From: Bacillota bacterium
Lineage (GTDB): Bacteria > Bacillota > Limnochordia > Limnochordales > ZCTH02-B6
Direction: 5' to 3'
DNA: 39,589 bases
NCBI GenBank assembly: GCA_017656145.1
Contig: JACDOI010000023.1
Coordinates: forward strand, 1-39,589
Positions 20,596 to 39,589 of the stretch are shown here, one piece after another. Both the position numbers and the translations under genes were made by a program. Under the pieces are notes generated by a model that saw nothing but the letters and a program-made list of their open reading frames with translations, did not search any database and was not told the DNA's origin. How positions within the stretch are numbered: position 1 is the first letter of the stretch; each line of letters starts with the position of its first letter.

Positions 20596-22104
20596 TTAGC
20601 TTCCCAACCCGGAACCGAGCACCGCCTGAATGTACAGGGACGGCTGCAAGAGCTGGTGGGCCGACTCCAGCACGTAGCCGACCGTGAACTGGGCGCCCAA
20701 GCCCATGCCGACCGACACCGCGACGAGCAGGGCCAGGGGGCCGAGCAACGCCCCATAAGTGCGCAAGTCGACGGCGCGATCCGCGGCGGCCTTGTGGCGA
20801 ACCTCCCCCCAGAAGCTCGTCCGGAAGATCTTGATCATGGAAAAGAGCGTAAAAAGGCTTACGCCGACGGCTGTCGCGACAATGCCGTACCGGCCCTCGG
20901 CAAGCCCCGCTTGGATCAGCGTAAACTTGCCGAAAAAGCCGCTCAACGGGGGAACGCCGGCCAAAGACAGCCCGCCCACGAAAAACAGCGCCCCCAGGGC
21001 CGGATGGGTCGTCAAAAGGCCGCTCATCTTTTTGAGGTTCGTCGTTCCCGTCAATTTTTCCGTGACGCCGCTGGCTAAAAACAGGGCGGTCTTGACCACC
21101 ATGATGTGGGCCACGTAATAGATGGCGCCGGCAAGGGCCAGCGGGGTGAAAATGGCCAGCCCCATGACCATGTAGCCGATCTGGCTGATGATGTGCCAGG
21201 TGAGAATTCGCTTGAAGTCCATCTGGGCCAGCGTGCCCAGGATGCCGACGACCATCGAGAGTCCGGCAATCCAGACGAGGAGGGTGTAGGTGAAGCCGTC
21301 GTCAACCCCGAACAGGAGGGTGTAGACCCGCACCATCGCGTACACGCCCACCTTGGTCATGACGCCGCCGAAAAACGCGGTGACCGCTCCCGGTGGCGCC
21401 ACATACGAGCGGGGCAACCAAAAGTACAGCGGGAAGATGGCCGCCTTGATCCCGAACACGATCAACAGCAGAACGGAAGCGATGGCTACGACAGGGCTGT
21501 CCTTTACCTCGGCGATCTTCACGGCCATATCGGCCATGTTCAGCGTGCCGAGCGTGCCGTACAGGACCGACACGGAAACCAGGAAGAGGGTCGAAGCCAG
21601 CATATTGATCATGACGTACTTGAAGCCTTCCTGGAGCTGGTACGGCTCTCCGCCCAAGGTGAGCAAGATGTACGACGCGATGAGCAGCACTTCAAACCAG
21701 ACAAAGAGGTTGAAGATGTCTCCCGTGAGAAAGGCGCCGTTGATCCCCATCAACAAAAACTGGAAGAGGGGATAGAAGAAAAACCGCTCCCGCTCGGGGT
21801 CCATCGTCAAAAATGCGTACCACAAAACCGCCGCTGCCACCAACATGTTGAGCGCGACCAAAAGCGTGCTGAGAAGATCCCCCACGAAGACGATGCCGAA
21901 CGGTGCGGGGAAATCACCCACATACAGCACTTGGATGCCCTCGGCCCTCACTTGCCGGATGAGTGCCACTGCGATCAGAAATCCGACCGCGGTCGACACC
22001 GCGGAAATGCGCCGCTGCCATTCCGCCCGCCGCGGCAAGAGAATCAGGGCGATGCCCGTGAGCATCGGCAAAACGACGGGGAGCGCAAGCCCGTTAGGAC
22101 TCAT
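20596..22104 (-). CDS. mrpD: Na+/H+ antiporter subunit MrpD
   Basis: Proton-pumping-type membrane subunit of 502 residues homologous to complex I NuoN/NuoM. It has about 14 TM helices. The essential Glu of the trans-membrane proton path is in FNLFVWFEVLL (about Glu138). The Lys-containing helices are seen in FGIKAAIFPLYFWLPRSYVAPPGAVTAFFGGVMTKVGVYAMVR. The ATG start has AGGGGGCTC upstream and overlaps the end of mrpC by 11 bp. Confidence 0.95.
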   Translation of the reverse strand: MSPNGLALPVVLPMLTGIALILLPRRAEWQRRISAVSTAVGFLIAVALIRQVRAEGIQVLYVGDFPAPFGIVFVGDLLSTLLVALNMLVAAAVLWYAFLTMDPERERFFFYPLFQFLLMGINGAFLTGDIFNLFVWFEVLLIASYILLTLGGEPYQLQEGFKYVMINMLASTLFLVSVSVLYGTLGTLNMADMAVKIAEVKDSPVVAIASVLLLIVFGIKAAIFPLYFWLPRSYVAPPGAVTAFFGGVMTKVGVYAMVRVYTLLFGVDDGFTYTLLVWIAGLSMVVGILGTLAQMDFKRILTWHIISQIGYMVMGLAIFTPLALAGAIYYVAHIMVVKTALFLASGVTEKLTGTTNLKKMSGLLTTHPALGALFFVGGLSLAGVPPLSGFFGKFTLIQAGLAEGRYGIVATAVGVSLFTLFSMIKIFRTSFWGEVRHKAAADRAVDLRTYGALLGPLALLVAVSVGMGLGAQFTVGYVLESAHQLLQPSLYIQAVLGSGLGS

Positions 22105-22435
22105 CTTCGAGCCCCCTAAGCTGCCTGAGATCGTCAGTGCCTTTCTCCTGGTAGATCCGGTAAGCCAACACGAGGATGAGGGCCGTCGTTCCCAAGCCGA
22201 TGACGATGGCCGTAAGAATCAAGGCCTGCGGCAACGGATCCGTGACCGGCGCCGGAACGTCGCCCACCAAAGGAGCTCCGCCCCGCTTGAGACGTCCGGA
22301 GGTCAAAAGCAGGAGATTGACCGCGTGAGAGATGAGCGCCGACCCGAAGACGACTCGAAGGAGCCGCGGCTTGAGCAAGAGGTAAATCCCGGAGCCAAAG
22401 AGAACGCCGATTGCGATGATCGCTGCAAGTTCCAT
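22094..22435 (-). CDS. mrpC: Na+/H+ antiporter subunit MrpC
   Basis: NuoK-like subunit of 113 residues with three TM helices. Family segments are AIIAIGVLFGSGIYLLLKPRLLRVVFGSALISHAVNLLLLTSG and DPLPQALILTAIVIGLGTTALILVLAYRIYQE. The ATG start is preceded by GGGAGAAAGGA. It begins 30 bp after mrpB. Confidence 0.95.
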   Translation of the reverse strand: MELAAIIAIGVLFGSGIYLLLKPRLLRVVFGSALISHAVNLLLLTSGRLKRGGAPLVGDVPAPVTDPLPQALILTAIVIGLGTTALILVLAYRIYQEKGTDDLRQLRGLEDES

Positions 22436-22465
22436 GCCGTGTCCTTTCTCCCTGGTTTCACGCCC

Positions 22466-22906
22466 TTATGACCCGGGCCCGCTTTGACCTGCCCTTCCGG
22501 TCGCGACGGTCAGGATCGTCCACTTGGCCACACCCACCACGACCAGATACACGCCGATGTCAAACACAACGGCGGAGGCCAATTCTACCTCTCCGAGAAA
22601 CGGCAAGAAGGTATGGTGAAAAACGTGGTCCAAAAACGGCCTGCCAAACAGCATCGAAGCGACGCCGGTTCCGACGGCCAGCAGAAGCCCCAGGCCGATG
22701 AGGGTCTGCTCCCGCACCGGCACCAGGCTGCTGGCGTAGCGCGCATCGAACGCCAACGCCTGCAGCACCATCGCGGACGCCGTGAGCAAGCCCGCAATAA
22801 ACCCACCCCCGGGCTCATTATGGCCCCGGATCAGGAGGTAAAACGAAAACAGGGTGAGCAGATACAAGTGAATCCGCACAGACGTCCGCAGGATGAGCGG
22901 GTTCAC
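22466..22906 (-). CDS. mrpB: Na+/H+ antiporter subunit MrpB
   Basis: Membrane protein of 146 residues with about four TM helices. The segment LFSFYLLIRGHNEPGGGFIAGLLTASAMVLQALAFD is diagnostic of the MnhB domain, and GEVELASAVVFDIGVYLVVVGVAKWTIL forms the last helix. It is a separate gene rather than fused to mrpA, as in group 1 operons. The start overlaps the mrpA stop by 4 bp. Confidence 0.94.
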   Translation of the reverse strand: MNPLILRTSVRIHLYLLTLFSFYLLIRGHNEPGGGFIAGLLTASAMVLQALAFDARYASSLVPVREQTLIGLGLLLAVGTGVASMLFGRPFLDHVFHHTFLPFLGEVELASAVVFDIGVYLVVVGVAKWTILTVATGRAGQSGPGS

Positions 22907-25308
22907 GGCATCTCCCCCTCCCGGGCGTCGCGGGCGGCTGATCGCGGATCGTCGAAGGCGACCGGCGGGTCGTCGACCGGCCGTTCCGCCCGGCCCCGGG
23001 TCCGCTGGCGCAAGGTAACGAGGGCGTACACGCTGAGCGCGGCGATGCCGAGCACTGTAATTTCTCCCATCGTATCAACGCCGCGGAAGTCGACGAGGAT
23101 CACGTTGACGATGTTCGAGCCGCCTCCCAGCGGCTTGCTGTTTTCCACAAAGTACTGGGAGATGCTGGGAAACAACCGGTTAGCGTTGGTCATGAGCGCC
23201 AAGAACGCCACGAGCGCCCCCGCCCCGGCCGCCAGGGCGATGTCCGCGGCCTTGCGGCGGGCGGTGTCCTGCTCCTTCGGCAACGGGGGCAAGTACCGAA
23301 CGGCGAGCAAGATGAGCACAGTGCTGATGGATTCCACCATCAGCTGTGTCAGCGCGAGATCCGGGGCCCGCAGCTGGACGTACAAGAACGAAACCATTAA
23401 CCCGACGATCGAAAGGGCGACGATCGCGGCCAGCCTGTGCCGGAACGCGGCCACCGCGATGGCCCCCGCGATGATGAGCGCGATGACGACGGCTTCCACG
23501 AACGTCATCGGAGCCAAATCCAGTCGGAGATCAAAGGCGGCGCCGCTGGCCGCGGCGGCCAGTCCGATCCCGAGAAATACCACAAGCAGGATGTAGGCGA
23601 TATAATCCCGGAGCAGCCCGGTCATATGCACCCGCACCATCCAGCGGGAAAGCCGGTCAAGGCCCGCAAGGATGCCGTCGTACACCGCATTGGCGTGAAC
23701 GCGAGGCCTGACCTGGTCAAAAGCCCGGCGCACCGATTCGAGGTGCCGGTAGCCCCACAGGCCCAGCCCCAGCGCGATCAGGCTCATGGCCAGCGGCATA
23801 CCGGGTACGGGCACGTTGTGCACATGCCCATGAACCTCCTCGCGCATATGGCCGCTGGCAGCAGCGTTGAAGATCGGGCCCTCGGCGATGTAGGGGTACA
23901 CACCGAGCAGCACGACAAGCCCTACCAGGAGCACCGGCCCCAAAAGCATCCCCGCCGGCGGGTCGTGGGGATGCTCGGCGTCGCCGTACCGCGGCTTGCC
24001 AAAGTTGATCCGGTGGGCGAGGATCAGGCAATAGATGGTCGTCATCGCACTGCCCAGCACCGCCAGGACGGCAAACGCCTGGGTCCAAACGTCAGGACCG
24101 AAGGGCGGATGCAGCATCGCTTCAAAAATGAGTTCCTTGCTTACAAACCCGTTCAGGGGCCATACGCCGGCCATGGACAAGGCGGCGATTCCCGTCAGGA
24201 CGGCGGTGACCGGCATCGCCTTGTAGAGGCCGCCCAGCCGCCTCAGATCCCTCGTGTGGGTTTCATGGTCGATGATGCCCACGAGCATGAACAAGGCGCC
24301 CTTGAACGTCGCGTGGTTCAAGATGTGCGCTGCCCCCGCGAGAGCCGCCACTTCCGTCCCTGCGGCGAACATCGGCATGATGAGGCCCAGCTGGCTCACG
24401 GTGGAATAGGCCAACAGCGCCTTGAGATCCGTTTGCCGGATGGCAAGGAACGCTCCCAAAAACACCGTGACGGCTCCCACAGCCGAGACGGTGTAGTACC
24501 AAAGGGGTGTTCCGCCCAGGAGGGGGGCCATCCTCCCCACCAAAAAGATGCCGGCCTTCACCATCGTGGCCGAGTGGAGATACGCGCTGACCGGCGTCGG
24601 GGCTGCCATCGCTCCGGGCAACCAGATGTGGAACGGGGCCTGGGCCGATTTGGTAAAGGCACCGAGAAGCAGCAAAAGCACGATGGGAACGTAAAGCGGC
24701 GAGGCGAGGACGGCCTCCCGGTTTTCCATGAGCGCTGACAGCTCAAACGAGCCCCCCACCACATACAACAGGACCGCGGCGGTGAGGATCCCGAACCCGC
24801 CCAGCACCGTGATCATCATGGCTTTGAGAGCGCCCCAGCGGGACTCCTCCCGGGTGTGCCAAAAGCCGATCAGCAAAAACGACGCCACGCTGGTGATCTC
24901 CCAGAAGATGTAAAGCAGGACGATGTTGTCCGCTGTGACGACGCCCAGCATGGCGCCCATAAAGATGAGAATGTAAAGATAGAACTTGCCCAGGTCTTCC
25001 CTGGGCCCCAGGTAATACGTGGAATAGATGACGACCAACGAGCCGATGCCCGTGATGAGCAGGGCGAAAAGAAGGCCGAAGCCGTCCAATGCAAAGGAGA
25101 GGTCTACGCCCAAAAGCGGAATCCAGGGAAGCCGGAAGCCGACCGGCTCACTGCCGAGCTCTCCCAGAAAGCCCAAGTAATACACGAAAAGGGAAACCGG
25201 CACAACAGCGACGAGAAACCCAACGCGCCGGCCTGCCTTGCGGTAGAGGGCCGGTACCCAAGGCGCCAGGATGAATGGGAGCATCACGCTGGCAAAAAGG
25301 CTCGACAC
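22903..25308 (-). CDS. mrpA: Na+/H+ antiporter subunit MrpA
   Basis: Large NuoL-like subunit of 801 residues with about 20 TM helices; it couples proton and sodium movement with the other six subunits. The conserved Glu137 lies in VLLYIFWEITSVASFLLIGFWH. The Lys/His helices are in GAFTKSAQAPFHIWLPGAMAAPTPVSAYLHSATMVKAGIFLVGRM, and the C-terminal part (residues about 590-790) carries the MrpA_C/MbhD-E-like domains. The GTG at 25308 lacks a strong ribosome binding site. A start a few codons later (ATG in ASVMLPF) is possible. The promoter about 45 bp upstream agrees with a start in this area. Confidence 0.93.
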   Translation of the reverse strand: MSSLFASVMLPFILAPWVPALYRKAGRRVGFLVAVVPVSLFVYYLGFLGELGSEPVGFRLPWIPLLGVDLSFALDGFGLLFALLITGIGSLVVIYSTYYLGPREDLGKFYLYILIFMGAMLGVVTADNIVLLYIFWEITSVASFLLIGFWHTREESRWGALKAMMITVLGGFGILTAAVLLYVVGGSFELSALMENREAVLASPLYVPIVLLLLLGAFTKSAQAPFHIWLPGAMAAPTPVSAYLHSATMVKAGIFLVGRMAPLLGGTPLWYYTVSAVGAVTVFLGAFLAIRQTDLKALLAYSTVSQLGLIMPMFAAGTEVAALAGAAHILNHATFKGALFMLVGIIDHETHTRDLRRLGGLYKAMPVTAVLTGIAALSMAGVWPLNGFVSKELIFEAMLHPPFGPDVWTQAFAVLAVLGSAMTTIYCLILAHRINFGKPRYGDAEHPHDPPAGMLLGPVLLVGLVVLLGVYPYIAEGPIFNAAASGHMREEVHGHVHNVPVPGMPLAMSLIALGLGLWGYRHLESVRRAFDQVRPRVHANAVYDGILAGLDRLSRWMVRVHMTGLLRDYIAYILLVVFLGIGLAAAASGAAFDLRLDLAPMTFVEAVVIALIIAGAIAVAAFRHRLAAIVALSIVGLMVSFLYVQLRAPDLALTQLMVESISTVLILLAVRYLPPLPKEQDTARRKAADIALAAGAGALVAFLALMTNANRLFPSISQYFVENSKPLGGGSNIVNVILVDFRGVDTMGEITVLGIAALSVYALVTLRQRTRGRAERPVDDPPVAFDDPRSAARDAREGEMP

Positions 25309-25551: not shown

Positions 25552-28500
25552 ATGAGATTGCCGGCGATCAACAAGGTCCTAGTCGCCAACCGCAGCGAGA
25601 TCGCGATCCGGGTCTTTCGCGCGTGCACCGAGCTTCACAAACAGACGGTCGCCATCTACTCGGAGGAGGACAGCCTCTCCTTGCACCGCTACAAGGCGGA
25701 CGAGGCTTACCTCGTCGGCAAGGGCAAGGGGCCTGTCGAAGCCTACCTCGACATCGAAGGCATCCTCGAGATCGCGAAACGGACCGGGGCGGACGCGATC
25801 CACCCCGGATACGGCTTTCTGGCGGAAAATGCCGAGTTTGCCCGAAGGTGCGAGGAGGAGGGCATCATCTTTATCGGCCCCACCCCCCGGCACCTGAGTC
25901 TCTTCGGCGACAAGGTCGCCGCGCGGGCCCTCGCTCAAGAAGCGGGACTGCCCCTCGTTCCGGCGACGCCCGAGCCTGTCCACACCTTGGAGGAGGCCTT
26001 GCGCTTTGCCAAGACCCACGGCTACCCGCTCATCGTCAAGGCGGTGGCCGGCGGCGGCGGGCGGGGAATGCGGGTGGTTCGCAATCGCGCGGAGCTGGAA
26101 GGCGCTCTTGAGCGGGCCCGCTCCGAAGCGGCGAAGTCTTTCGGCAATCCGGCCGTGTTTCTTGAGCGCTACATCGAACACCCCAAGCATATCGAGGTGC
26201 AGATCCTGGCCGACCAGCACGGGAATATGGTGCACCTGTTTGAGCGCGACTGTTCTGTCCAGCGGCGCCACCAGAAGGTGGTCGAGATCGCACCGGCCAT
26301 CGCGTTGAGCGAGGAGAAGCGGCAGGAGATCTGCGAAGCGGCGCTGCGCTTGATGCGCCGCGCCGGATACGTCAACGCCGCGACGGTGGAGTTTCTTTAC
26401 GATGCCGGGGGCAATTTCTACTTCCTCGAGGTGAACCCGCGGATCCAGGTGGAGCACACTATCACCGAACTCATCACCGGCATCGACATCGTGCAGGCCC
26501 AGATCCGCATCAGTGAGGGGCAGACCCTCGCGGAGATCGGCATCCCGGGCCAGGAAGCCATCACCCGGCGGGGCTATGCCATCCAGTGCCGGATTACGAC
26601 CGAGGATCCGACCAACAATTTCGTGCCCGACCGCGGCCGGATAACGGCCTACCGGAGCGCGGCCGGCTTCGGCGTGCGGCTTGATACCGGCAACGGCCAC
26701 ACCGGGGCGGTGATCACACCGTATTACGACTCCCTTCTGGTCAAAGTGAGCACGTGGGCGCTGACCTTTGAGAGCGCGGCCTTCAAAATGCTCCGATCCC
26801 TGCGGGAGTTCCGCATCCGGGGCATCAAGACCAACATCCCCTTCCTCGAAAACGTCGTGCAGCACCCGACGTTTCTCAAAGGGGAGTGCACGACCACGTT
26901 CATCGACACCACCCCCGAGCTCTTTGAGTTTCACAGCCGGCGCGATCGGGGGACCAAGCTTCTCACCTTCATCGCCAACCGGACGGTCAATCTGCCGCCG
27001 GAGTTTAAGAAGGTGGACAAAAAGGCTTTCCGCAAGCCGGTCGTTCCCGAAGTCTCGGTCAAGACTCCCTACCCCCCGGGGACCAAGGACATCCTCGACA
27101 AGGAGGGCCCCAAGGGCCTGGCCGAATGGGTAAAGGCGCAAAAGCGGGTGCTTTTGACGGACACGACCTTGCGCGACGCGCACCAGTCGCTTCTGGCCAC
27201 CCGGATGCGCACCTACGACATGCTCCGCATCGCCGAGGCCACGGCCAAACTTGTGCCGCAGCTGTTTTCCCTGGAGACGTGGGGCGGCGCCACCTTTGAC
27301 ACGTGCCTTCGCTTCAACTTTGAATGCCCGTGGGAGCGGCTTGAGCGGCTGCGGGCGCTCATCCCCAACATTTGCTTCCAGATGCTTTTGCGCGCCTCCA
27401 ATGCCGTCGGGTATGCCAACTACCCCGACAACGTCGTGCGGGAATTTGTGAAAGAGGCGGCGGCGGCGGGCGTCGACATTTTTCGCATCTTTGACAGCCT
27501 GAACTGGGCTGAAGGCATGCGCGTCGCCATGGAGGCGGCCTTGGAGGCGGGCAAGGTGGTTGAGGCCGCCATCTGCTACACCGGCGACATTCTCGACGAA
27601 AGCCGCACGAAATACAGCCTGAAGTACTACGTCGAGCTGGCCAAGGTGCTCGAGTCGTACGGAGCCCACATCCTGGGCATCAAAGACATGGCCGGCCTGC
27701 TCAAACCGTATGCAGCGGAAAAGCTCATCCGCACCCTGAAAGAGGAGATCGGCATCCCGATCCACCTGCACACCCACGACACGAGCGGCAATGGGATCGC
27801 CACGCTCATCAAGGCGGTCGAAGCGGGCGTTGACATCGTCGATGCCGCGACGAGTTCCATGTCCGGCCTGACCAGCCAGCCGAGCCTCGGGGCGCTGGTG
27901 GCGGCCCTTGAGCGGACGGAGCGGGATACGGGCCTCGATCTCGAGGCGCTCGTGCAGCTTGACGAGTACTGGGAGGTTGTCAGGCAGTACTACGCGCCGT
28001 TCGAATCGGGACTTAAGACGGGCACGCCCGAAGTGTACGTCCACGAGATGCCGGGAGGCCAATACTCCAACCTGTGGGAGCAGGCCAAGGCGCTGGGGCT
28101 TGAGGACCGCTGGAAGGAGATCAAGCGGGCGTATGTGGCCGCCAACAAGCTGATGGGCGACATCGTCAAGGTGACGCCGTCGTCCAAGGCCGTGGGCGAC
28201 CTTGCCCTCTTTATGGTCCAAAACAACCTGGATGCAGAGTCGCTGTTGGCTCGGGCGGAAGAACTGGATTTCCCGGAGTCGGTCGTCGCGTTTTTCCAGG
28301 GACTCATGGGACAGCCGATGGGGGGATTCCCCAAGGAGCTGCAGCGCAAGGTGCTCAAAGGGCGAGAGCCCATCACCTGCCGCCCGGGCGAGCTGCTGGA
28401 GCCGGTGGATTTCGATGCCGTCCGCAAGGATCTGGAGGAGGAGTACGGCAGCGTTATCACGCACCGGGACGTGCTCAGCGCCGTCCTTTACCCGTCCGTC

Positions 28501-29001
28501 TTCAAAAGCTACATGGAGCACCGCACGGCCTACAGCGACACGTCGGTGATCGACACGCCCACGTTCTTTTACGGGCTGTGGGTGGGCGAGGAAACCCGCA
28601 TCGAGATAGAGCCCGGAAAGACGCTGGTGATCAAGCTCACGGCCGTCGGCGAGCTCCTCGAGGATGGGACCCGCATCGTCTACTTTGAGCTCAACGGCCA
28701 GCCCCGCGAGGTGCGGGTGCCGGATGAGAGCGCCAAGGTCAAAAAGGTGGAACGGCCCAAGGCGGACCGGCGCAACCCGGGTCACATCGGCGCCTCGATG
28801 CCGGGCAACGTCGTCAACGTTCTCGTCAAAGAGGGCGAGGCCGTCGCCAAGGGCCAAGTCCTCGTCGTTACCGAAGCGATGAAGGTCGAACAGACGATCC
28901 AGGCGCCACGAGCGGGCACCGTGACCGAGGTGCTCGTCAAAGCGGGCGACTCCATCCAGGCGGGCGATCTTTTGCTCGTCGTGGAACCCGGCGAGAGCTG
29001 A
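25552..29001 (+). CDS. pyc: Pyruvate carboxylase
   Basis: Single-chain anaplerotic enzyme of 1149 residues that carboxylates pyruvate to oxaloacetate using ATP and bicarbonate. Domain order: biotin carboxylase (about 1-455) with LVANRSEIAIRVFRA and the ATP-grasp loop KAVAGGGGRGMRVV; the carboxyltransferase TIM barrel (about 530-800) starting LLTDTTLRDAHQSLLATRMRT; a linking PC domain; and a C-terminal biotinyl domain with the acceptor lysine K1111 in VTEAMKVEQ. Length and order match canonical alpha4 pyruvate carboxylases. The ATG has only a weak ribosome binding site (GGTG). It is divergent from the mrp operon; no operon partner is evident downstream. Confidence 0.97.
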   Translation: MRLPAINKVLVANRSEIAIRVFRACTELHKQTVAIYSEEDSLSLHRYKADEAYLVGKGKGPVEAYLDIEGILEIAKRTGADAIHPGYGFLAENAEFARRCEEEGIIFIGPTPRHLSLFGDKVAARALAQEAGLPLVPATPEPVHTLEEALRFAKTHGYPLIVKAVAGGGGRGMRVVRNRAELEGALERARSEAAKSFGNPAVFLERYIEHPKHIEVQILADQHGNMVHLFERDCSVQRRHQKVVEIAPAIALSEEKRQEICEAALRLMRRAGYVNAATVEFLYDAGGNFYFLEVNPRIQVEHTITELITGIDIVQAQIRISEGQTLAEIGIPGQEAITRRGYAIQCRITTEDPTNNFVPDRGRITAYRSAAGFGVRLDTGNGHTGAVITPYYDSLLVKVSTWALTFESAAFKMLRSLREFRIRGIKTNIPFLENVVQHPTFLKGECTTTFIDTTPELFEFHSRRDRGTKLLTFIANRTVNLPPEFKKVDKKAFRKPVVPEVSVKTPYPPGTKDILDKEGPKGLAEWVKAQKRVLLTDTTLRDAHQSLLATRMRTYDMLRIAEATAKLVPQLFSLETWGGATFDTCLRFNFECPWERLERLRALIPNICFQMLLRASNAVGYANYPDNVVREFVKEAAAAGVDIFRIFDSLNWAEGMRVAMEAALEAGKVVEAAICYTGDILDESRTKYSLKYYVELAKVLESYGAHILGIKDMAGLLKPYAAEKLIRTLKEEIGIPIHLHTHDTSGNGIATLIKAVEAGVDIVDAATSSMSGLTSQPSLGALVAALERTERDTGLDLEALVQLDEYWEVVRQYYAPFESGLKTGTPEVYVHEMPGGQYSNLWEQAKALGLEDRWKEIKRAYVAANKLMGDIVKVTPSSKAVGDLALFMVQNNLDAESLLARAEELDFPESVVAFFQGLMGQPMGGFPKELQRKVLKGREPITCRPGELLEPVDFDAVRKDLEEEYGSVITHRDVLSAVLYPSVFKSYMEHRTAYSDTSVIDTPTFFYGLWVGEETRIEIEPGKTLVIKLTAVGELLEDGTRIVYFELNGQPREVRVPDESAKVKKVERPKADRRNPGHIGASMPGNVVNVLVKEGEAVAKGQVLVVTEAMKVEQTIQAPRAGTVTEVLVKAGDSIQAGDLLLVVEPGES

Positions 29002-29708
29002 GCCCACAGCCGGCCGGCTTGTTCAGAATTCAGTATCGACGCGCAGAGTGCGCCCATCGGTGATTCGCCGTTTCCAGGACGCCCTGGATGCAAGCGCGAA
29101 CGACCTGAAGGTTCGCTTCGCCCACCGGATTCCCTGACGTGGAGCGAGCCTGCTGGAGCGGGGATTCGGGAAAGTGCGTCGGAGGAACAATCGAAGGACG
29201 TCGGGGCATCCTCCGGTTTTCGCATTTTACGCCAGCGAGAAGGTTTGGTTCTCCGGAAAACCGGCTACCCATGTTCGACTGCCAGTTGGGGATGCAGGTC
29301 ATTTGGAGTTTACTCCCGCACCTTGATTGGGTTATCGACCTGTAAGAATTCGCATGCAACGAAAACTCCATTGTGTCTGGCGGTGTGAGGGTAGGGATGC
29401 CTTGTACCCGATGCCGCACCGTCCGTCCAGATGTCGCCGCCCTCTTGTTGTAATGGATGGCGCCTTCCTCGATATGCCCTTAGAGCCGGCGGTATAGTGA
29501 AGGGCCGCGGAAAGGACGCCAGGCGATTAGTATTCGCGTTAGGAAAAACTGCAGAAAAACATTTTCGCGAAATTCATTTGATGTTAGCAGGAATTATAGT
29601 GTCTGACATGTAATCAATCATATGGTGTTGAGACGCCGTTCTATTTAGAACAGGATTTTATTATTGTTGCTGTGTATGTCATTGCAGCACCTGTTGAGGT
29701 GAGCCATC
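29002..29708. other. Long intergenic region before the sugar-acid cluster
   Basis: About 700 bp without a gene I can support. Short open frames exist on both strands (for example 29030-29419 minus, 29139-29345 plus), but none is recognisable, and the first half reads as degraded coding sequence of unknown origin. From about 29520 the DNA becomes A/T-rich and contains a perfect 10-bp palindrome TTTCGCGAAA (29563-29572), the IclR-type operator at 29638-29651, and a -10-like TATTAT at 29659-29664. Confidence 0.5.
29638..29651. promoter_or_regulatory. IclR-type operator before kdgK
   Basis: GTTCTA-TT-TAGAAC, a 6-bp inverted repeat with a 2-bp centre, lies 57 bp upstream of the kinase start. It sits where the -35/spacer would be if TATTAT at 29659-29664 is the -10. 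The same motif (GTTCTA-AT-TAGAAC) lies before the IclR gene at 33407-33420. Confidence 0.65.
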
Positions 29709-30650
29709 TTGCCTAGATTTGTGACACTCGGAGAAACGCTTATCCGGCTATCAGTTCCATCCGGATATTCGCTTGAAGCACCGCCTTACTTGAATATCCA
29801 GGCGGCAGGAGCTGAGTCCAACGTGGCTATCGGTCTTGCCAGGTTCGGTCATAGCGCGTCCTACCTAAGTGTGCTGCCGGACAATGACTTGGGTCGATTC
29901 ATAGCCGGAGAACTGCGCCGGCAGGGAGTGGATCTTGACGGTTTGGCGTTTGTGCCTGGTGGCCGGGCAGGTCTTTATTTTCTGGAATTGGGTGTGGCGC
30001 CGCGGGTCGGTAAGGTGATTTACGACCGGGCGGGCTCTGCCTTTGCGAATGCAGACCCTGAAACGCTCAAATGGTCGGTAATGGACGGAGCGACGCTGCT
30101 ACACCTGACGGGCATTACGCTGGCAGTCAACGCCTCGGTAGCACTTCGAGGGTTGGACGAGGCACGCCGTCGCGGGCTCAAGGTTAGTTTTGACCTCAAC
30201 TACCGCCACAAGTTATGGTCCCCAGAACGGGCGCGCGATGCGTTGGCGGCCGTGCTCGGGCGCGTGGATGTGCTCATCACCACGCTCGAAGACGCCCAGG
30301 CAGTCCTTAACGTGGAGGGGACGGCTGAGCAGGTCGCCCACGCACTTTTTGAAACATACGCTCCTGAGGTGGCGGTAGTTACCAACGGCGCTCAGGGTGC
30401 GAGTGCTTCTGGGAAGGAGGGGGCATTCAGCGTAGCTGGTTACGAGCTGCATGTTCTGGATCGCATCGGCGCTGGGGATGCGTTTGTCGCAGGATTCCTC
30501 AGCGGGTGGTTATCTAAGGGTAGTTCGTACGGTCTCCAACTCGGCCTCGCTATGGCAGCTCTCAAGCACACCTATTACGGGGACGTAGCTTGGGTAAACC
30601 GCGAGACCGTACAGGCACTAATAGACCGTCGACACAGCGGATGGCGTTGA
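29709..30650 (+). CDS. kdgK: PfkB family sugar kinase, 2-keto-3-deoxygluconate kinase-like
   Basis: Ribokinase-fold kinase of 313 residues that probably phosphorylates 2-keto-3-deoxygluconate (KDG) to KDPG. The N-terminal LGETLIRLSVPSG and QAAGAESNVAIGLARFG segments, the sugar-site motif IYDRAGSA at 104-111 (KDG kinases have a Tyr-Arg pair here), and the catalytic GAGD at 254-257 (Asp257 general base) are all present. The TTG start at 29709 has GAGGTGA upstream. It is the first gene of the sugar-acid cluster, and the KDPG aldolase gene 2 kb downstream completes the KDG to pyruvate plus glyceraldehyde-3-phosphate route. This supports the substrate assignment. Confidence 0.88.
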   Translation: MPRFVTLGETLIRLSVPSGYSLEAPPYLNIQAAGAESNVAIGLARFGHSASYLSVLPDNDLGRFIAGELRRQGVDLDGLAFVPGGRAGLYFLELGVAPRVGKVIYDRAGSAFANADPETLKWSVMDGATLLHLTGITLAVNASVALRGLDEARRRGLKVSFDLNYRHKLWSPERARDALAAVLGRVDVLITTLEDAQAVLNVEGTAEQVAHALFETYAPEVAVVTNGAQGASASGKEGAFSVAGYELHVLDRIGAGDAFVAGFLSGWLSKGSSYGLQLGLAMAALKHTYYGDVAWVNRETVQALIDRRHSGWR

Positions 30651-30709
30651 GCCGGTGGACTGTGTACGAAGCCACGTTTTGAGAAGACAGTAAAAGGAGG
30701 AACGAGCGA

Positions 30710-31486
30710 GTGCCGCGACTTGCGGGAAAAGTTGCAATCGTTACAGGTAGTGGGATGGGCATTGGCCAGGGAATCGCCCGGGTCTTCGCCCGGGAAGGAG
30801 CTCGGGTAGTTGTCGCCGACATCGATGAAGATGCTGCGAACTCGACGGCCGCTGAGCTCTGTTCCGAGGGTGGGACGGCGATAGCCTTTCCTGTGGACGT
30901 GGCGGATGAGCGCCAGGTGCAGCGGCTCATCGACTTCACGATTGAGCGTTTTCACCGGCTGGACGTTCTGGTAAACAACGCCGGTGTGGGAGTTTACAAG
31001 CCCCTGCTCGAAACTTCCCGGGAGGAGTGGGAGCGAGCGCTGAAGGTCAATCTAACAGGTGTCTTTCTTTGCTCGAAATACGCCCTGCCGCACATGCGCC
31101 GTGCAGGAGCGGGCTCGATTGTTAACATTGCCTCCGTTCACTCCGTGCAAAATGTCCCTGGAACCGCGCCGTACGCCGCTTCAAAGGGCGGAGTGGCCGC
31201 ACTCACCCGTCAGATGGCCCTTGATTATGGTAAGGACGGAATTCGTGTTAATGCCATTTGCCCGGGTTGGATTCTTACCCCCTTGACTGAAGGCATCTTT
31301 CGAAATTCCGGTGATTATGAGGGCATGAAGCGAGCCGTGGCCGAGCGCCAGGTAGTGGGCCGTATCGGTCTTCCCGAGGACGTGGGTTACGGCGCCCTCT
31401 ATTTGGCCAGTGATGAGTCGACTTTTGTCACCGGTATACTGTTGTTCATTGACGGCGGTCTGACTGCTCAACTTGAAACGTGGTGA
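30710..31486 (+). CDS. SDR family NAD(P)-dependent oxidoreductase
   Basis: Classical short-chain dehydrogenase of 258 residues. The cofactor motif TGSGMGIG is at 12-19; Asp37 at the end of strand beta2 suggests NAD preference. NNAG is at 89-92, and the catalytic Ser142, Tyr155 and Lys159 (YAASK) are in place. The C-terminal segment TGILLFIDGGLTAQ is typical. The GTG start has AAAGGAGG 9 bases upstream. In this cluster it would be expected to oxidise a sugar acid or deoxy-ketogluconate, comparable in role to KduD or a sugar-acid dehydrogenase, but substrate specificity cannot be read from the sequence. Confidence 0.9.
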   Translation: MPRLAGKVAIVTGSGMGIGQGIARVFAREGARVVVADIDEDAANSTAAELCSEGGTAIAFPVDVADERQVQRLIDFTIERFHRLDVLVNNAGVGVYKPLLETSREEWERALKVNLTGVFLCSKYALPHMRRAGAGSIVNIASVHSVQNVPGTAPYAASKGGVAALTRQMALDYGKDGIRVNAICPGWILTPLTEGIFRNSGDYEGMKRAVAERQVVGRIGLPEDVGYGALYLASDESTFVTGILLFIDGGLTAQLETW

Positions 31487-31499
31487 GGTGGGACTCTGT

Positions 31500-32693
31500 A
31501 TGCCCATGACCTACGATGAGAAACGTGCAGGCTGCATCCGGCAGATGCTGGTCAACACTCGGCTGGACGGACTGATTTGCCTATTGCCAGAGAACCTTGT
31601 GCTCCTGGCCGGCTATTGGCCGGTTATCGGTCACGCAGCGGTAATATATCCGCGCGAGGGTGACCCGGTAATTGTCGCGCCTGTGCTTGACGAGCGGGCT
31701 CTCGAGCGAGCAACAGTGCGGGACGTCCGTACATTTCCGGTGTTCAAATTGGATGCTCCTCCACCGCCTGAGAGCCTCGCTAGGATGGTGGCTGACGTTT
31801 TGCAGGAGAAGGGATTGGCCGGGCGTCGCCTGGGGTTTGACGGAACGTTTGGGGACATTTCGCCGACCCAAAAAGTGCTGGAACCTTGGGTTCCCTCAGG
31901 CGAGACGTGGGCTTTATTGCGGCGTGCAAGCGGTGGAGCCGAGTGGATTGACATCTCCCCGCATTTGGCCGAACAGCGTATCTGCAAGACGGAATTCGAG
32001 ATCGAACGCATTCGAATCGCTTGTGAAATTGCTGACTTCGGTCTGCGGGCTTTCCGGGAGGGCGTGGAAGAGGGCAAGCGCGAAACGGACCTCGCCGCTG
32101 ATATCGAAGCGGCCATTATGCGGGAAGGCACCGGATACAAGGGTACCCTACACGCCCGTGGACAAGCCTTCGTGTTCTCTGGTGTGGAGCGTCTGTACCG
32201 CCACGGCTGGGGCGTGGCGCCCAATACCGATCGCAGATTGCAACCGGGCGATTTGGTCATGGTTGAGTTGTCAGTGGTTGCCGATGGGTACTTCGCCGAT
32301 CTGGCACGCATGCGTGTCGTCGGAAAGGCTACTGAAGCGCAGCGGGAAGCTTATGAGGCATGCGTTGCAGCACAAGAAGCGGCCCTTGCGGTGATACGTC
32401 GCGGAGTAGCTGCCGGGGAGGTTGACCGGGCTGCACGAGATGTGTTCAGGCGGCGCGGGTTGGGCCAAGCGTTTGTTCATCTGACCGGTCACGGCGTCGG
32501 CTTTCGATACCACGACGGCCCGCCCTTTCTTTTGCCCGGGGTAGAAACGCCCCTTGACATAGGAATGGTACACAGCGTTGAGCCGGGGATCTACACCCCT
32601 GACCTGGGCGGACTGCGTCTGGAAGATGATGTCGTCGTCACCGAGACCGGACACGAGGTGCTCTCTAAGGCGCCTCGCGACTTGGAAGGCTGA
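31500..32693 (+). CDS. M24 family protein (Xaa-Pro peptidase/creatinase fold) with altered first metal ligand
   Basis: Pita-bread-fold protein of 397 residues with a creatinase-type N-terminal domain (1-150) and a C-terminal M24 domain. The five metal-ligand positions read Glu256 (normally Asp; LVMVELSVVADGYFADLARM), Asp267, His331 (TGHGVGF), Glu361 (HSVEPGIY) and Glu375 (RLEDD). The Asp-to-Glu change at the first position is noted, and I cannot say whether it abolishes peptidase chemistry. The ATG at 31500 has GAGGTGG about 8 bases upstream; a TTG 27 bp earlier overlaps the SDR gene. Location between an SDR and a KDPG aldolase gene is unexpected for a peptidase and suggests a role on an amide or amino-sugar-acid substrate, which is speculative. 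Confidence 0.85.
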   Translation: MPMTYDEKRAGCIRQMLVNTRLDGLICLLPENLVLLAGYWPVIGHAAVIYPREGDPVIVAPVLDERALERATVRDVRTFPVFKLDAPPPPESLARMVADVLQEKGLAGRRLGFDGTFGDISPTQKVLEPWVPSGETWALLRRASGGAEWIDISPHLAEQRICKTEFEIERIRIACEIADFGLRAFREGVEEGKRETDLAADIEAAIMREGTGYKGTLHARGQAFVFSGVERLYRHGWGVAPNTDRRLQPGDLVMVELSVVADGYFADLARMRVVGKATEAQREAYEACVAAQEAALAVIRRGVAAGEVDRAARDVFRRRGLGQAFVHLTGHGVGFRYHDGPPFLLPGVETPLDIGMVHSVEPGIYTPDLGGLRLEDDVVVTETGHEVLSKAPRDLEG

Positions 32694-32728
32694 GTTGCCC
32701 GGTCAGACCACAGGCAAGGGGATAGCCG

Positions 32729-33397
32729 ATGGTCGATTGCGTGACAGGCCTGGTTCGCCGCCATCGCCTGGTGGCCATCCTTCGGGGCGTGCCGGCAGAC
32801 AGGATTGTAGAGATGGGCGAGGCGTTGTTGGAGGGGGGGATTCGCGTTATGGAGGTAGCACTCAGTACTCCGGACGCGCTCGTGGCCCTGGAACGACTCC
32901 GTCTCACTATGGAAGATCGTGCAGCGGTCGGTGCAGGGACAGTCGTCGACGCCGAGCAGGGGCGGCGGGCACTGGGAGCAGGTGCACAGTTCTTCGTGAC
33001 GCCGCACGTGGCGGAGCCTGTGTGCGAACTGGCAGCACGAGAGCGGATCCCAGTGATCGCCGGGGCTCTAACCCCCACCGAGATCGCCCGCGCGGTGGAT
33101 TTGGGAGCTGCGTTCGTCAAATTGTTCCCGGCTGCTGCAGTTGGCTCCGAATACATTCGTGCTCTGTTGGGTCCGTACCCAAAACTAGAAATTTTGGCGG
33201 TGGGAGGAGTGGGGATAACCAACCTCGCTGATTTTCTGCGGGCGGGAGCGGTCGGCGCAGGAATCGGCGGGGCCCTGACTCAAGCCGCAGATGGAGTACT
33301 CGATCCGAGCCGTGTCCAATCTGTTGCAACTCGGTTGGTTTCCGTGGTCAAAGAGGAAGTGAAACGCATTGTGTCGAATTCGGATACTAAGACATAA
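32729..33397 (+). CDS. kdgA: 2-keto-3-deoxy-6-phosphogluconate aldolase
   Basis: Class I aldolase of 222 residues that cleaves KDPG to pyruvate and glyceraldehyde 3-phosphate (bifunctional forms also cleave 4-hydroxy-2-oxoglutarate). LVAILRG places Arg19, the general base Glu42 is in MEVALSTP, and the Schiff-base Lys131 is in AFVKLFPAA. The phosphate-binding glycine stretch is AVGGVG. The usual SPG motif is replaced by TPH at 91-93. The ATG at 32729 follows AAGGGGATAG. The stop is only 1 bp from the IclR operator. It completes the pathway begun by the KDG kinase gene. Confidence 0.91.
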   Translation: MVDCVTGLVRRHRLVAILRGVPADRIVEMGEALLEGGIRVMEVALSTPDALVALERLRLTMEDRAAVGAGTVVDAEQGRRALGAGAQFFVTPHVAEPVCELAARERIPVIAGALTPTEIARAVDLGAAFVKLFPAAAVGSEYIRALLGPYPKLEILAVGGVGITNLADFLRAGAVGAGIGGALTQAADGVLDPSRVQSVATRLVSVVKEEVKRIVSNSDTKT

Positions 33398-33398
33398 T

Positions 33399-33420
33399 AG
33401 AACATTGTTCTAATTAGAAC
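33399..33420. promoter_or_regulatory. Overlapping palindromes, probable IclR autoregulatory operator
   Basis: AGAACA-T-TGTTCT (33399-33411) overlaps the perfect 14-bp palindrome GTTCTAATTAGAAC (33407-33420), giving three alternating half-sites. A weak promoter TTGTGT-18 bp-CATAAT (33369-33398) ends just before it, so a repressor bound here would cover the transcription start. The IclR start codon is 39 bp downstream. Confidence 0.65.
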
Positions 33421-33458
33421 GCAACTTCGCTTCGGTAGGGTCTGGTGGTGTCGATGAT

Positions 33459-34283
33459 ATGACAGAAACAAAGATGCCCCTGGTAAACACGCTTATCAAC
33501 GGGCTCCGCATTCTCGAGACACTGGCGTTTGCCGAGAGACCGAGCCTGGGCGTTACCGAGATAGCAAACCGGCTGCGGCTTCATAAAAGCACGGTCCTTC
33601 GGCTTCTAGCCACTCTGGAGCATGAGAGATACGTGGAGCAAGATCCGGAGACCCGCGAGTTTCGCTTGCGTATGAAATTGTTTGAAATCGGAAGCTCTTT
33701 GCTGGCCCGCGTCAGTCTGACGAGTGTTGCACGGCCCTTTCTCGAGGAGTTGGGGCGGCTTGCCGGAGAGGTCATCCATCTGGCCATTCTCGATGAAGGT
33801 ACCGTGATTTATATAGACAAGGTCGAAAGCAAGCACACGATTCAAATGTACTCTCGCATTGGACGGCGTTCGCCCGTTCATTGCACGGGGGTCGGCAAGG
33901 CGCTTATTGCCTACCTGTCCGACGAGGAGCTGGACCGGATCATAGAACAGCATGGATTGAAGCGATACACACAAAACACCATTACAGACAAAGAGGCGCT
34001 CAAGCGACACCTGGCCCAAATTCGCAGCCAGGAGGTTGCTTTCGATAACGAAGAGCACGAGCCCGGGATTCGCTGTGTGGCTGCGCCGGTGCGAGACTAC
34101 ACGGGTAAGGTGATCGCGTCCATCAGCGTGGCGGGTCCCACTTTGCGCATGACGCCGGAACGTGCCCAAGCGCTGGTCGAGCCTGTTCAGCACGCAGCTC
34201 GACGCGTTTCTGAGGAGCTGGGATACCGCGCCCAACTTGTTGCTCGTGCACAAGGGGCACCCATTAAGGAGGGACTTTCTTGA
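33459..34283 (+). CDS. IclR family transcriptional regulator (KdgR-like by context)
   Basis: Regulator of 274 residues. The winged helix (LINGLRILETLAFAERPSLGVTEIANRLRLHKSTVLRLLATLEHERYV) is followed by the effector-binding GAF-like domain: VIHLAILDEGTVIYIDKVESKHTIQMYSRIGRRSPVHCTGVGKALIAYLSDEELD, then HEPGIRCVAAPVRDYTGKVIASISVAGPTLRM. The sequence is a strong match to the KdgR/IclR group. The ATG has no strong Shine-Dalgarno; GGTGGTG is nearby. The gene lies within the sugar-acid cluster and its stop overlaps the next start (TGATG), so it is co-expressed with an RraA-like enzyme. KDG or a related keto-acid is the natural guess for effector. Confidence 0.92.
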   Translation: MTETKMPLVNTLINGLRILETLAFAERPSLGVTEIANRLRLHKSTVLRLLATLEHERYVEQDPETREFRLRMKLFEIGSSLLARVSLTSVARPFLEELGRLAGEVIHLAILDEGTVIYIDKVESKHTIQMYSRIGRRSPVHCTGVGKALIAYLSDEELDRIIEQHGLKRYTQNTITDKEALKRHLAQIRSQEVAFDNEEHEPGIRCVAAPVRDYTGKVIASISVAGPTLRMTPERAQALVEPVQHAARRVSEELGYRAQLVARAQGAPIKEGLS

Positions 34284-34957
34284 TGAAGATTATTCACCCT
34301 AAAACGCCCGGTGTTCCGGAGTCGGTTGTTAGTGGATACCGGGAGTTGCTCAAAATTTACAGCCCTTCATGTGTTGTCGCGGACTCTCTGGAGCGCCAAG
34401 GGGTCATGCACAGCGCGATCAAGCCTGCTGCTCCCGGACGGTTTGTCGGTCCAGCCGTGACCGTGAAGCTTGACCCGGGCGACCTCGTAGATTGCCTTGA
34501 GGCTCTGAAAGTCGCCGGGCCGGGCGATGTGATTGTCGTAGACGCGTGTGGGGAAACTGAGACGTCCGTGTGGGGCGGTTTGATGGCCGGTCTATGCAAA
34601 CACAAGGGGGTGGTGGGAGCTGTCGTTGACGGTGCGGTGCGGGATATCGACGAAGTCAAGGATCTCGGTTTTCCTCTTTACAGCCGGGCGGTCGTTCCTC
34701 GTTCCACGCACTCGCCCTACTCGGGTAGGCTAGACCCCATTGAAGTGAACGGGCCGGTTACATGCGGCGGTGTTATTGTCAACCCCGGCGATGTGGTCCT
34801 GTCCGATGAGATCGGTGTTGTGGTCGTGCCGCAAGACAAAGCGGCAGAGGTCCTAGAAAGGGCGCGCGAGCAGGCGCGTAAGGAGGAAGAAACGCGTCAG
34901 CGCATTCGGGAGGGGAAGTCGGTAGACGAGTTGCTGGCCGAATTCGGCCGGCTCTAA
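34283..34957 (+). CDS. RraA/HMG aldolase family protein
   Basis: Protein of 224 residues of the RraA-like family, which includes 4-hydroxy-4-methyl-2-oxoglutarate and oxaloacetate-cleaving aldolases/decarboxylases (class II, divalent metal). The GGLMAGLCKHKGVVGAVVDGAVRDIDEVKDLGFPLYSR stretch contains the phosphate/pyruvate-binding glycines and the catalytic Arg120-Asp121 pair. A C-terminal charged helix (ERAREQARKEEETRQRIREG) is common in the family. The ATG overlaps the IclR stop (TGATG) and AAGGAGG lies 9 bases upstream. In this cluster it could cleave a branched or hydroxylated 2-keto acid to pyruvate; the substrate is unknown. Confidence 0.88.
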   Translation: MKIIHPKTPGVPESVVSGYRELLKIYSPSCVVADSLERQGVMHSAIKPAAPGRFVGPAVTVKLDPGDLVDCLEALKVAGPGDVIVVDACGETETSVWGGLMAGLCKHKGVVGAVVDGAVRDIDEVKDLGFPLYSRAVVPRSTHSPYSGRLDPIEVNGPVTCGGVIVNPGDVVLSDEIGVVVVPQDKAAEVLERAREQARKEEETRQRIREGKSVDELLAEFGRL

Positions 34958-35015
34958 TGTCAGACAAGATTTGTTGAATTAAATCAATTTCCTAAGTAAA
35001 GGAGGTCGGTAAATT

Positions 35016-36110
35016 ATGGCTTATGTACGGTTGTTCCCCGGTTTCACGGCGCTGGTGGTCGGTTTGCTGATAAGTGTGGGCGTGGGGGCGTTCGCAGGGA
35101 TCGCGCATGGTCAGGAGAGGGAGTATGAATTCAAGGGTCAAATCCTGACCGTCCACGAACTCGAAGAGGGAGCCCAGGCTCAATTTGACAACCTGGCGTA
35201 CACGCCTGGACGCACGCCGCGCGTTGCTTATATGCCGCCTGCCACGGAATTCAACTACTATATGGCAATTGGCGAGGGGATCAAGGCTGTGGCGGCGGAA
35301 ACCGGGGTCGATACGTTCACGTTGGCCCCGCTGAGCGGTTCGGACATCCTCACCCAGATGGGAATGCTGCAGGATGTCATCAGCCAACAAGTCGACGCGA
35401 TCATTCTGTCGACTCATGACGAGTTTGCTGCAGCGCCTCTCGTGAGAAGGGCCGTGGACCAGGGAATCGTCGTGGTCATTGTCAACTCCGATATTCCCAA
35501 TTTCCCCTCCCCGGTCCACGCAGTTGTAGGTTATCATCAGCGGGCCGGAACACGCAAGATCGGCGAGTATGCGCTAAACCTGGTGGGCGATAAACCGATC
35601 AAGGTCGGCATCATTGAAGGCCTTCCGGGATACCACTCCACGGAGCGGGTCGGCGGATTCCTCGATGCGATTGCGGGCAGCTCCTTTCAGGTCGTGTCCA
35701 GCCTCGACGGGAAATGGAACGTTGAAGGTGGGAACGCGGCAGCCATGGACATGTTGCAGGCTCATCCGGATATAGACCTGATATTCGCGGCCAACGACTA
35801 CATGATCATGGGTGCTGCCCGCGCCGCCCAGACGCTCGGTAAGCACGGGCTGATCCTGCTCGGCAATGACGGCGACACGGCGGCGCTCGAAGAGATTGCG
35901 GCTGGAACCATCACGGCCACCGTCAATACCACTCCGTTCGTCATGGGCCAGATAACCTTGCACGTGGTGCTGGACATCCTGAACGGCAAATTTGCCGGCG
36001 GTTATGTGGAGACGCCTACTGTGATCGTGGACCAATCCAACGTCATGGAATACCTGTGCCGGCCTGAAGAGCTTGATCCCAAACCGGCGCAAACCTACGA
36101 ATGTGGTTGA
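35016..36110 (+). CDS. Sugar ABC transporter substrate-binding protein (Peripla_BP_4)
   Basis: Secreted binding protein of 364 residues of the ribose/xylose-binding type. A signal peptide (LFPGFTALVVGLLISVGVGAFAGIAHG) is followed by PRVAYMPPATEFNYYMAIGEGIKAVAAETGVDTFTLAPLSGSDILTQMGMLQDVISQQVDAIILSTHDEFAAAPLVRRAVDQGIVVVIVN. The hinge pattern LIFAANDYMIMGAARAAQTLG is typical of this class. The ATG is preceded by AAAGGAGGTCGG. It should feed the RbsA-type ATPase encoded next, but the permease of that importer is missing (see the junction near 37.2 kb). The 58 bp before it are A/T-rich. Confidence 0.92.
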   Translation: MAYVRLFPGFTALVVGLLISVGVGAFAGIAHGQEREYEFKGQILTVHELEEGAQAQFDNLAYTPGRTPRVAYMPPATEFNYYMAIGEGIKAVAAETGVDTFTLAPLSGSDILTQMGMLQDVISQQVDAIILSTHDEFAAAPLVRRAVDQGIVVVIVNSDIPNFPSPVHAVVGYHQRAGTRKIGEYALNLVGDKPIKVGIIEGLPGYHSTERVGGFLDAIAGSSFQVVSSLDGKWNVEGGNAAAMDMLQAHPDIDLIFAANDYMIMGAARAAQTLGKHGLILLGNDGDTAALEEIAAGTITATVNTTPFVMGQITLHVVLDILNGKFAGGYVETPTVIVDQSNVMEYLCRPEELDPKPAQTYECG

Positions 36111-36132
36111 ACGTAATACGAGCGCGGCTATA

Positions 36133-36165
36133 GTCCCTGGCCCACAACCTAAGTGGGCCAGGGAC
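36133..36165 (+). terminator. Strong stem-loop after the sugar-binding protein gene
   Basis: GTCCCTGGCCCAC (36133-36145) pairs perfectly with GTGGGCCAGGGAC (36153-36165), a 13-bp stem with a 7-nt loop. It lies between binding-protein and ATPase genes without a U-tract, so it probably protects the upstream message or attenuates transcription rather than ending it. Confidence 0.6.
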
Positions 36166-36187
36166 GACCGCTCCGCCGGGAGGCCTG

Positions 36188-37246
36188 GTGGTAGTGGCAT
36201 GGGCGGGTAACACACAGCCCCTTTGGGAATTGCGCAGGGTTTCTAAGCACTTTCCGGGTGTTAAAGCACTAGACGACGTATCCGTGACGATCCGCCCAGG
36301 GGAGATCCATGGTCTGGTAGGGGAAAACGGCAGCGGTAAATCCACTCTGATCAAGTGCCTTTCAGGAGTGCACCAGCCAGACGAGGGTATCCTTCTCCAT
36401 CGGGGCAGGAGCGTTGTGCTGCCCAACCCCCACGCGGCACAGCTGATGGGCGTAGCGACCATCTATCAGGAATTTTCGCTAGTCCCATCTCTTACGGTCG
36501 CCGAGAATCTTTACCTTGGGCGTTTGCCGCAGACGAGGGGACGGTTGGTCGATTGGGGTGCGATGCGTGAGGGAGCCCACAGGATCCTGGAAACGCTGGG
36601 ACTCGAGATCGATCCGAATTCCGTGGTGGGCAATCTCTCCGTTGCTGAACAGCAGCTGGTGGAGATAGCCAAGTCGGTTTCCACTGACGCGACTCTTCTG
36701 ATCATGGACGAACCGACCACGGCCCTTGGTCTTCCGGAAACGAAACGGCTGCACAAGCTAATACGCACGCTGGCCAGTCATGGGCGTGCCGTGTTGTACG
36801 TTTCGCATCGGCTGGACGATGTGTTGGAGGTATCACATCGTATTACCGTTCTCAAGGACGGACGAGTGGTTGCTACCCGGCCAAATTCGGGCATGACCCA
36901 TCGTGATGTCATACGACTCATGGTGGGCAGCGAGATCGAAGAGTACTACCCCAAAGAACACCATGCCAGTGATACACCCCTCTTGACAGTTCGTGGACTA
37001 CGTACCGCGGCTGGGGTGACGGACGCCACGTTCACGGTTCACCGAGGCGAGGTCTTGGGCCTGGCAGGAATGCTTGGCTCCGGACGCACCGCGATCGCGC
37101 GAGCCATTTTTGGACTGGAGCCTCTCGTGGACGGAGTGATTGAATTCAAAGGACGTCGGCTGCGGTTGCGGTCCCCTAGAGAGGCAATCGCTGCCGGGTT
37201 GGGCAGCGGAACCGTACCTCGGTGCTTACCAGGGGCTGCACGGTGA
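36188..37246 (+). pseudogene. Sugar ABC transporter ATP-binding protein (RbsA/MglA-type), truncated
   Basis: Members of this class are about 500 residues with two tandem ATPase domains; this frame ends at 352. Domain 1 is complete (Walker A GENGSGKST at 45-53, signature LSVAEQQ, Walker B LLIMDEPTTALG). Domain 2 starts near residue 265 with LTVRGLRTAAGVTDATFTVHRGEVLGLAGMLGSGRTAIARAIFGLEP. It runs to IAAGLG and then loses homology (SGTVPRCLPGAAR, stop) where 'YVPEDRK' is normally found. The downstream sequence in another frame is the body of an aldose-epimerase-like gene. The second domain therefore lacks its signature and Walker B. The GTG start at 36188 (or 36194) follows GGGAGG. Confidence 0.85.
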
Positions 37247-37985
37247 GGTTTCCCTACTGCCTTTCGAGGTGCGCGTCGTCGATGATACGCCAGATGAAGT
37301 TTTCATTACCGCGTCGACCCGTTGTTATCGATCGCCGCTGAGGCTGGAGAGGACTATGGGGTTGCGGAAGGAGCGGGCGATCCTCCACATCAAGGAACGG
37401 TTGATCAACGAGGCGCCCCGAGAATTCGCCGTCATGTGGGGCCATCATCCCGCAATCGGCGAGCCGTTCCTGGACGATTCGTGCATCGTTCAAACAACCG
37501 CTGGACGAGTGAAAGTCATGGAGTTTCACCGCAACGGATTGTGGGAGCGCGGTGAGTTCGAGTTTCCCCTTGTTCCCAATCGCCGAACGGGACAGTTGGA
37601 GGATATTACCCGGATCCGGCCGCGCGAGACGGGTTCCGTGGATGTCGTTTCATTCTGGGATTTGAAAGAAGGCTGGTACGGTCTGACAAACCAGCGTCGT
37701 CGGGTTGGATTCGGCATGGCATGGGATAAGCGACTGTTCCAGTGCCTATGGATGTGGCAAGTTTACGGAGGACACGACGATTATCCCTGGTACGGGCGGA
37801 CGTATAATGTGGCGTTAGAACCTTTCACGAGTTGGCCGCCCGCGGGCGTCGCGAATGCGGTGAATAACGGCACGGCCTTGGTCCTGAAACCGAATGAGGT
37901 AGTCGAAACCGACCTTGTCGCAGTGGCCTACGAGGCCGAGGGTATTCAGGGCATCGAACGAGACGGTACGGTGAGGCTGGCTTGA
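37200..37985 (+). pseudogene. Aldose 1-epimerase-like protein, 5'-truncated
   Basis: The frame from about 37200 onward encodes the C-terminal approximately 260 residues of a galactose-mutarotase-fold protein (aldose 1-epimerase/DUF4432-like): YQGLHGEVSLLPFEV, then a beta-rich body with AVMWGHHPAIGEP, and near the C-terminus QVYGGHDDYPWYGRTYNVALEPFTSWP. The N-terminal strands are missing. An ATG at 37140 in this frame reads through the ATPase gene's sequence in the wrong frame and encodes no family-like residues. No ribosome binding site is seen for an internal start. It is interpreted as the right-hand partner of a deletion; the family label is from overall resemblance. Confidence 0.7.
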
Positions 37986-39233: not shown

Positions 39234-39589
39234 TATTTGACCCCTCATAGGTAGAGCCGAAACCCGCTTGACGATGTCGCTCCACGCAGGTGTCTCTGGT
39301 TTCAATCCCTCATAGGTAGAGCCGAAACGGTGTGCGGGAGGTAGTCGTGACTCATGCGCACTGAGTTTCAATCCCTCATAGGTAGAGCCGAAACCACGGA
39401 GGCGATATGGTGAGGCTGCATAACCGTCAGGTGTTTCAATCCCTCATAGGTAGAGCCGAAACGTTCGTCGTCCCCTCCTCCACCGCCACCGCGCCACGTT
39501 TCAATCCCTCATAGGTAGAGCCGAAACAGCGCCCGCTCGGCCAGTTCGTTGTCGATGCGCTGGGTTTCAATCCCTCATAGGTAGAGCCG
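39234..39589 (-). CRISPR. CRISPR array, trailer end, six repeats in view
   Basis: Repeats of 30 nt on the plus strand start GTTTCAATCCC and end GAGCCGAAAC. Copies: 39234-39263 (5' part degenerate on plus strand), 39299-39328, 39365-39394, 39433-39462, 39498-39527 and 39564-39589 (cut by the window edge). The five spacers are 35, 36, 38, 35 and 36 nt. Read on the minus strand the repeat ends in ATTGAAAC, the usual 5'-handle of type I-B/III crRNAs. The degenerate copy lies at the left and is altered at what would be its 3' end. Transcription is therefore right to left, and the leader and cas genes are outside the window to the right. Subtype cannot be fixed without cas genes. Confidence 0.97.

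Follow-up and report, generated by a model that had tools for sequence, protein, structure and literature searches.

How did a sugar ABC-transporter ATPase gene come to run directly into an aldose-epimerase-like gene read in another frame? The two meet at the end of a single-strand operon (29.7-38.0 kb) in the last quarter of the window, by which we mean the whole 39,589-nucleotide stretch analyzed, equal to contig C23 of a draft genome (2,571,400 bases; 116 contigs; completeness 98.95%). Judged from the sequence, a sugar or sugar-acid uptake operon very probably lost approximately 1.9 kb in a single recent deletion with its ends inside the ATPase and epimerase genes, as the earlier note had proposed. 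The features concerned are the following.

29709-30650, + strand: PfkB-family 2-keto-3-deoxy-sugar kinase-like gene, first of the operon, intact (Pfam PF00294; NCBIfam KDG/KDGal kinase models below cut-off)
30710-31486, + strand: SDR oxidoreductase, intact (Pfam PF13561/PF00106; 55-59% identity in related loci)
31473-32693, + strand: M24 peptidase/creatinase-like gene, intact (Pfam PF00557; also in L031, L033, and L087)
32729-33397, + strand: KDPG/KHG aldolase, intact (TIGR01182, above curated cut-off)
33459-34283, + strand: IclR-family regulator, intact (Pfam PF01614, PF09339)
34280-34957, + strand: RraA-like aldolase, intact (Pfam PF03737; 65-68% identity to L036 and L087)
35016-36110, + strand: sugar-binding protein (Peripla_BP_4), intact, without its permease (Pfam PF13407; 58-65% identity to relatives)
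36188-37246, + strand: RbsA-type ATPase, truncated, with the first nucleotide-binding domain (NBD) complete and the second cut past the Walker-A-like loop (profiles, alignment)
37197-37204, no strand: putative deletion junction GGTTGGGC, a sequence that either parental gene could supply (apparent microhomology, 2 to 8 bp)
37197-37985, + strand: DUF4432 aldose-epimerase-like fragment, with approximately 100 N-terminal residues and its own start absent (profile, alignment)

All genes upstream through the binding protein have open frames and family matches over most of their length. A Peripla_BP_4 binding protein, a tandem-domain ATPase, and adjoining catabolic genes with a regulator are features common to RbsABC-type (CUT2) monosaccharide ABC importer operons. 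The RbsC-like permease of such importers, present in the relatives' loci, is absent here, and the ATPase, although nearest to the AraG, XylG, and RbsA models, is unlike CUT2 ATPases in being cut in its second domain. The picture of an orphan binding protein and a half-broken ATPase in an otherwise intact operon was in substance correct.

The ATPase open reading frame (36188-37246, frame 2) encodes 352 aa and ends at a TGA at 37244-37246. Matches to sugar-ATPase profiles, which are 492-513 positions long, end at its residues 331-340, and AraG, XylG, RbsA, and related models are covered only to positions 329-342 of approximately 500. Homology to intact relatives runs through AIAAGLG, with G339 (37204) the last family residue, so that profiles and alignment agree with the earlier placement of the break right after IAAGLG. 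The continuation expected there, YVPEDRK, needs amending: the closest relatives have (L/M)(V/I/L)PENRK, followed to a total of approximately 170 residues. The first NBD is complete, with Walker A (GENGSGKST), LSVAEQQ, and LLIMDEPT; the second keeps its Walker-A-like loop and is missing the LSGGNQQK signature and Walker B. In tandem ABC ATPases, the first domain's ATP site needs the LSGGNQQK signature of the second domain to be complete, and for this reason the truncated protein should not work.

The epimerase reading frame (37140-37985, frame 3, 281 aa) opens at a TTG at 37140 that falls in ATPase DNA in the wrong frame, leaving the epimerase part without a start of its own. Its match to DUF4432 (PF14486) covers only profile positions 86-300 of 304, short of the full profile. 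Homology to intact relatives begins at GWAAEPY, with the G-W at 37197, and starts with GWAAEPYLGAYQGLHGE where the relatives have PSAGWASEPYLGTYQGLHGE or near it; the 97 residues (approximately 100) that precede this point in their epimerases are absent from the window. The fragment shares GWAxEPY, YQGLHGE, GHHPAxGEPFLD, and WMWQVYGGHxDYPWYGR with DUF4432 galactose-mutarotase-like proteins and, unlike them, has neither profile positions 1-85 nor a proper start. By sequence no relative of solved structure was found for this family, and literature searches on DUF4432 epimerases turned up nothing; those on microhomology deletions and on RbsA structures contributed nothing to the present analysis.

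The two zones of homology overlap by up to 8 bp (37197-37204, GGTTGGGC), a stretch read as GLG codons in the ATPase frame and as GWA codons in the epimerase frame. The change of frame described previously is therefore upheld, and the spacing of 10-20 bp given for it is replaced by this overlap. How much of the overlap was shared by the parental genes can be bracketed from the amino-acid constraints of the relatives, which give the apparent microhomology at the junction as a range, 2 to 8 bp, with 2 bp at the strictest reading of Leu338. Random joins of the relatives' parental genes overlap by at least 8 bp in 0.3 to 0.4% of trials, a measure that favors the window in that the six closest relatives have Val or Ile where it has Leu338; leucine at this one permissive position does occur in another relative, L016. 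The junction 24-mer is unique genome-wide, even at three mismatches, and by blastn the junction region is not repeated anywhere in the genome. An inverted repeat lying on the junction (36413-36429 and 37196-37212) was dropped as a hairpin or chimera signal because 12-base inverted pairs occur in half of equal-length shuffles and because its other arm is off the left breakpoint.

What once lay between the two fragments can be read from related loci. Querying genome contigs with the epimerase fragment returned six loci at 62-70% identity, mostly from Chloroflexi or Anaerolineales MAGs. Further loci came from a search of the class to which one such relative belongs (396 genomes), and their neighborhoods were compared; it is on the Chloroflexi MAG loci and the genomes of that class that the comparison rests. 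Six loci from other genomes (L031, L033, L034, L036, L086, and L087) hold, on one strand, the binding protein, a two-domain ATPase, a permease, and the epimerase in that order; everything the window lacks is found there between the two portions that it retains, in matching order and orientation. L035 and L088 have the same parts as far as their contigs extend. The permease is present in all eight loci and absent from the window operon. A conserved chimeric ATPase-epimerase order, which would have counted against a scar, was sought in the related loci and found in none.

Alignment of the fragments to these intact homologues identifies the missing genes as the C-terminal half of the ATPase, a permease, and the epimerase N-terminus; the earlier list of losses holds except that one permease, not several, is gone. 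From ATPase G339 to the epimerase GW, the distance is 1878 bp in L036, 1883 bp in L034, and 1896 bp in L031, compared with minus 8 in the window, which is shorter by 1886, 1891, and 1904 bp, respectively, between the same residues. This estimate uses the three compact loci; the greater distances in L033, L086, and L087 are due to an additional IclR gene or a lengthy spacer. The DNA lost would comprise approximately 170 ATPase codons, the whole permease, and approximately 100 epimerase codons.

The related loci vary in other respects. In L033 (6030-6557) and L086 (3811-4269) the ATPase and permease genes are separated by an IclR gene; in the window and L087 the IclR gene is upstream, in the window 5' of the RraA-like gene. 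The L031 epimerase has an in-frame TGA (8652-8654) with homology for approximately 34 residues beyond it, in an otherwise intact operon. Near epimerase homologues in Chloroflexi-class genomes suggest horizontal sharing of the operon (29709-37985); among 60 relatives of the window's own genome the best epimerase match has 27% identity. Probing these 60 relatives at the DNA level with the chimera yielded no more than short matches to ATPase motifs, and the epimerase, sought in the 60 relatives and in 398 genomes of the phylum, had only distant matches.

Nor were the missing pieces found elsewhere in the genome. A full-length epimerase query has a single match, the junction fragment itself, and the epimerase N-terminus is nowhere in the 98.95%-complete assembly. 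Searches of the genome for the permease and the ATPase C-terminal half give only paralogues of at most 45% identity. Other RbsA-type operons occur on contigs C2, C3, C7, and C31, where the permeases, 30-40% identical to that of L036, adjoin ATPases of their own.

Both fragments are free of stops across approximately 600 codons. Under a simple substitution scheme, at least one stop would be 50% likely at approximately 1.1% neutral divergence and 95% likely at approximately 4.9%. Positions invariant in the relatives are changed at 14.9% in the ATPase and 11.8% in the epimerase, compared with 18.1% in the intact binding protein and 18.0% in the RraA-like aldolase, the last figure coming from three sequences only. 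The ATPase and epimerase fragments thus have no excess decay relative to their intact neighbors. The lack of both stops and excess divergence points to a loss that would be recent by the lineage's own time scale, with loose dating. Stops that seemed to interrupt other ABC genes of this genome were set aside as gene boundaries (L008; one contig checked).

The join is a genuine feature of the assembly and most likely of the cells too. An intact operon from which the contig skips 1.9 kb, through an assembly or library artifact, is unlikely, even though the genome is a draft in 116 contigs, the case is judged from the assembled sequence, and undecayed fragments would be expected under an artifact too. 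A graph misjoin requires shared sequence of assembler length, and the stretch shared here, at most 8 bp, is far under assembler overlaps. Such a join is improbable because of this shortness, because the genome has no repeat of the junction, and because the fragments are colinear, with order and orientation kept across the join as in a deletion; moreover, the skipped part is on no other contig. That the genome retains the missing functions at other loci and the transporter works in trans is extremely improbable: other RbsA-type operons are available, but their permeases are only distantly similar and sit beside their own ATPases, and no epimerase N-terminus was found anywhere in the genome.

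A useful product of the junction itself, either the truncated ATPase or an ATPase-epimerase fusion, is scarcely credible. Both frames are open over 37140-37243, where a frameshift could join them, but the arrangement has no counterpart in the related loci, the epimerase part has lost its first residues and start, and the ATPase part its second-domain signature and Walker B. A translated ATPase-epimerase fusion was considered and no support for it was found. Only slightly less remote is adaptive rewiring rather than loss, in which the truncated ATPase, left with one whole domain and a stub of the other and retained next to an intact binding protein, would be a working part that pairs with another transporter.

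In the favored reading, a single deletion, the two ends would have had a short stretch in common (GGTTGGGC at most), at which slippage or end-joining may have joined the ATPase gene to the epimerase gene. The product would be an ATPase without most of its second NBD, no permease, and an epimerase out of frame without its N-terminus and start. The binding protein would be orphaned and the uptake route most likely dead, while the enzymes of the operon could still act on substrate entering by other routes. Bacterial deletion pseudogenes with junction microhomology offer the same combination of a single deletion, a short sequence apparently shared by its ends, and undecayed fragments, with no notable difference. 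This would be ordinary gene loss in kind and poses no new biological question. Its value is as a well-bounded case in which an uptake operon would have lost its transporter core in one step with the enzymes left intact, and as a caution for annotation, since the 352-aa ATPase and the 281-aa epimerase would be called as ordinary open reading frames, both being broken.

Elsewhere in the window, a row of proton-antiporter or Mbh-type subunits (MbhD, MbhE, Proton_antipo_M) occupies 20596-25308 on the - strand. A pyruvate-carboxylase-like gene follows on the + strand (25552-29007, 1149 aa); antisense to nearly all of it, on the - strand, runs an open frame of 1142 aa without any Pfam match. At 39234-39589 is a CRISPR array with repeat GTTTCAATCCCTCATAGGTAGAGCCGAAAC and a 65-68 bp period, in six copies of which the first is degenerate, cut by the contig end.
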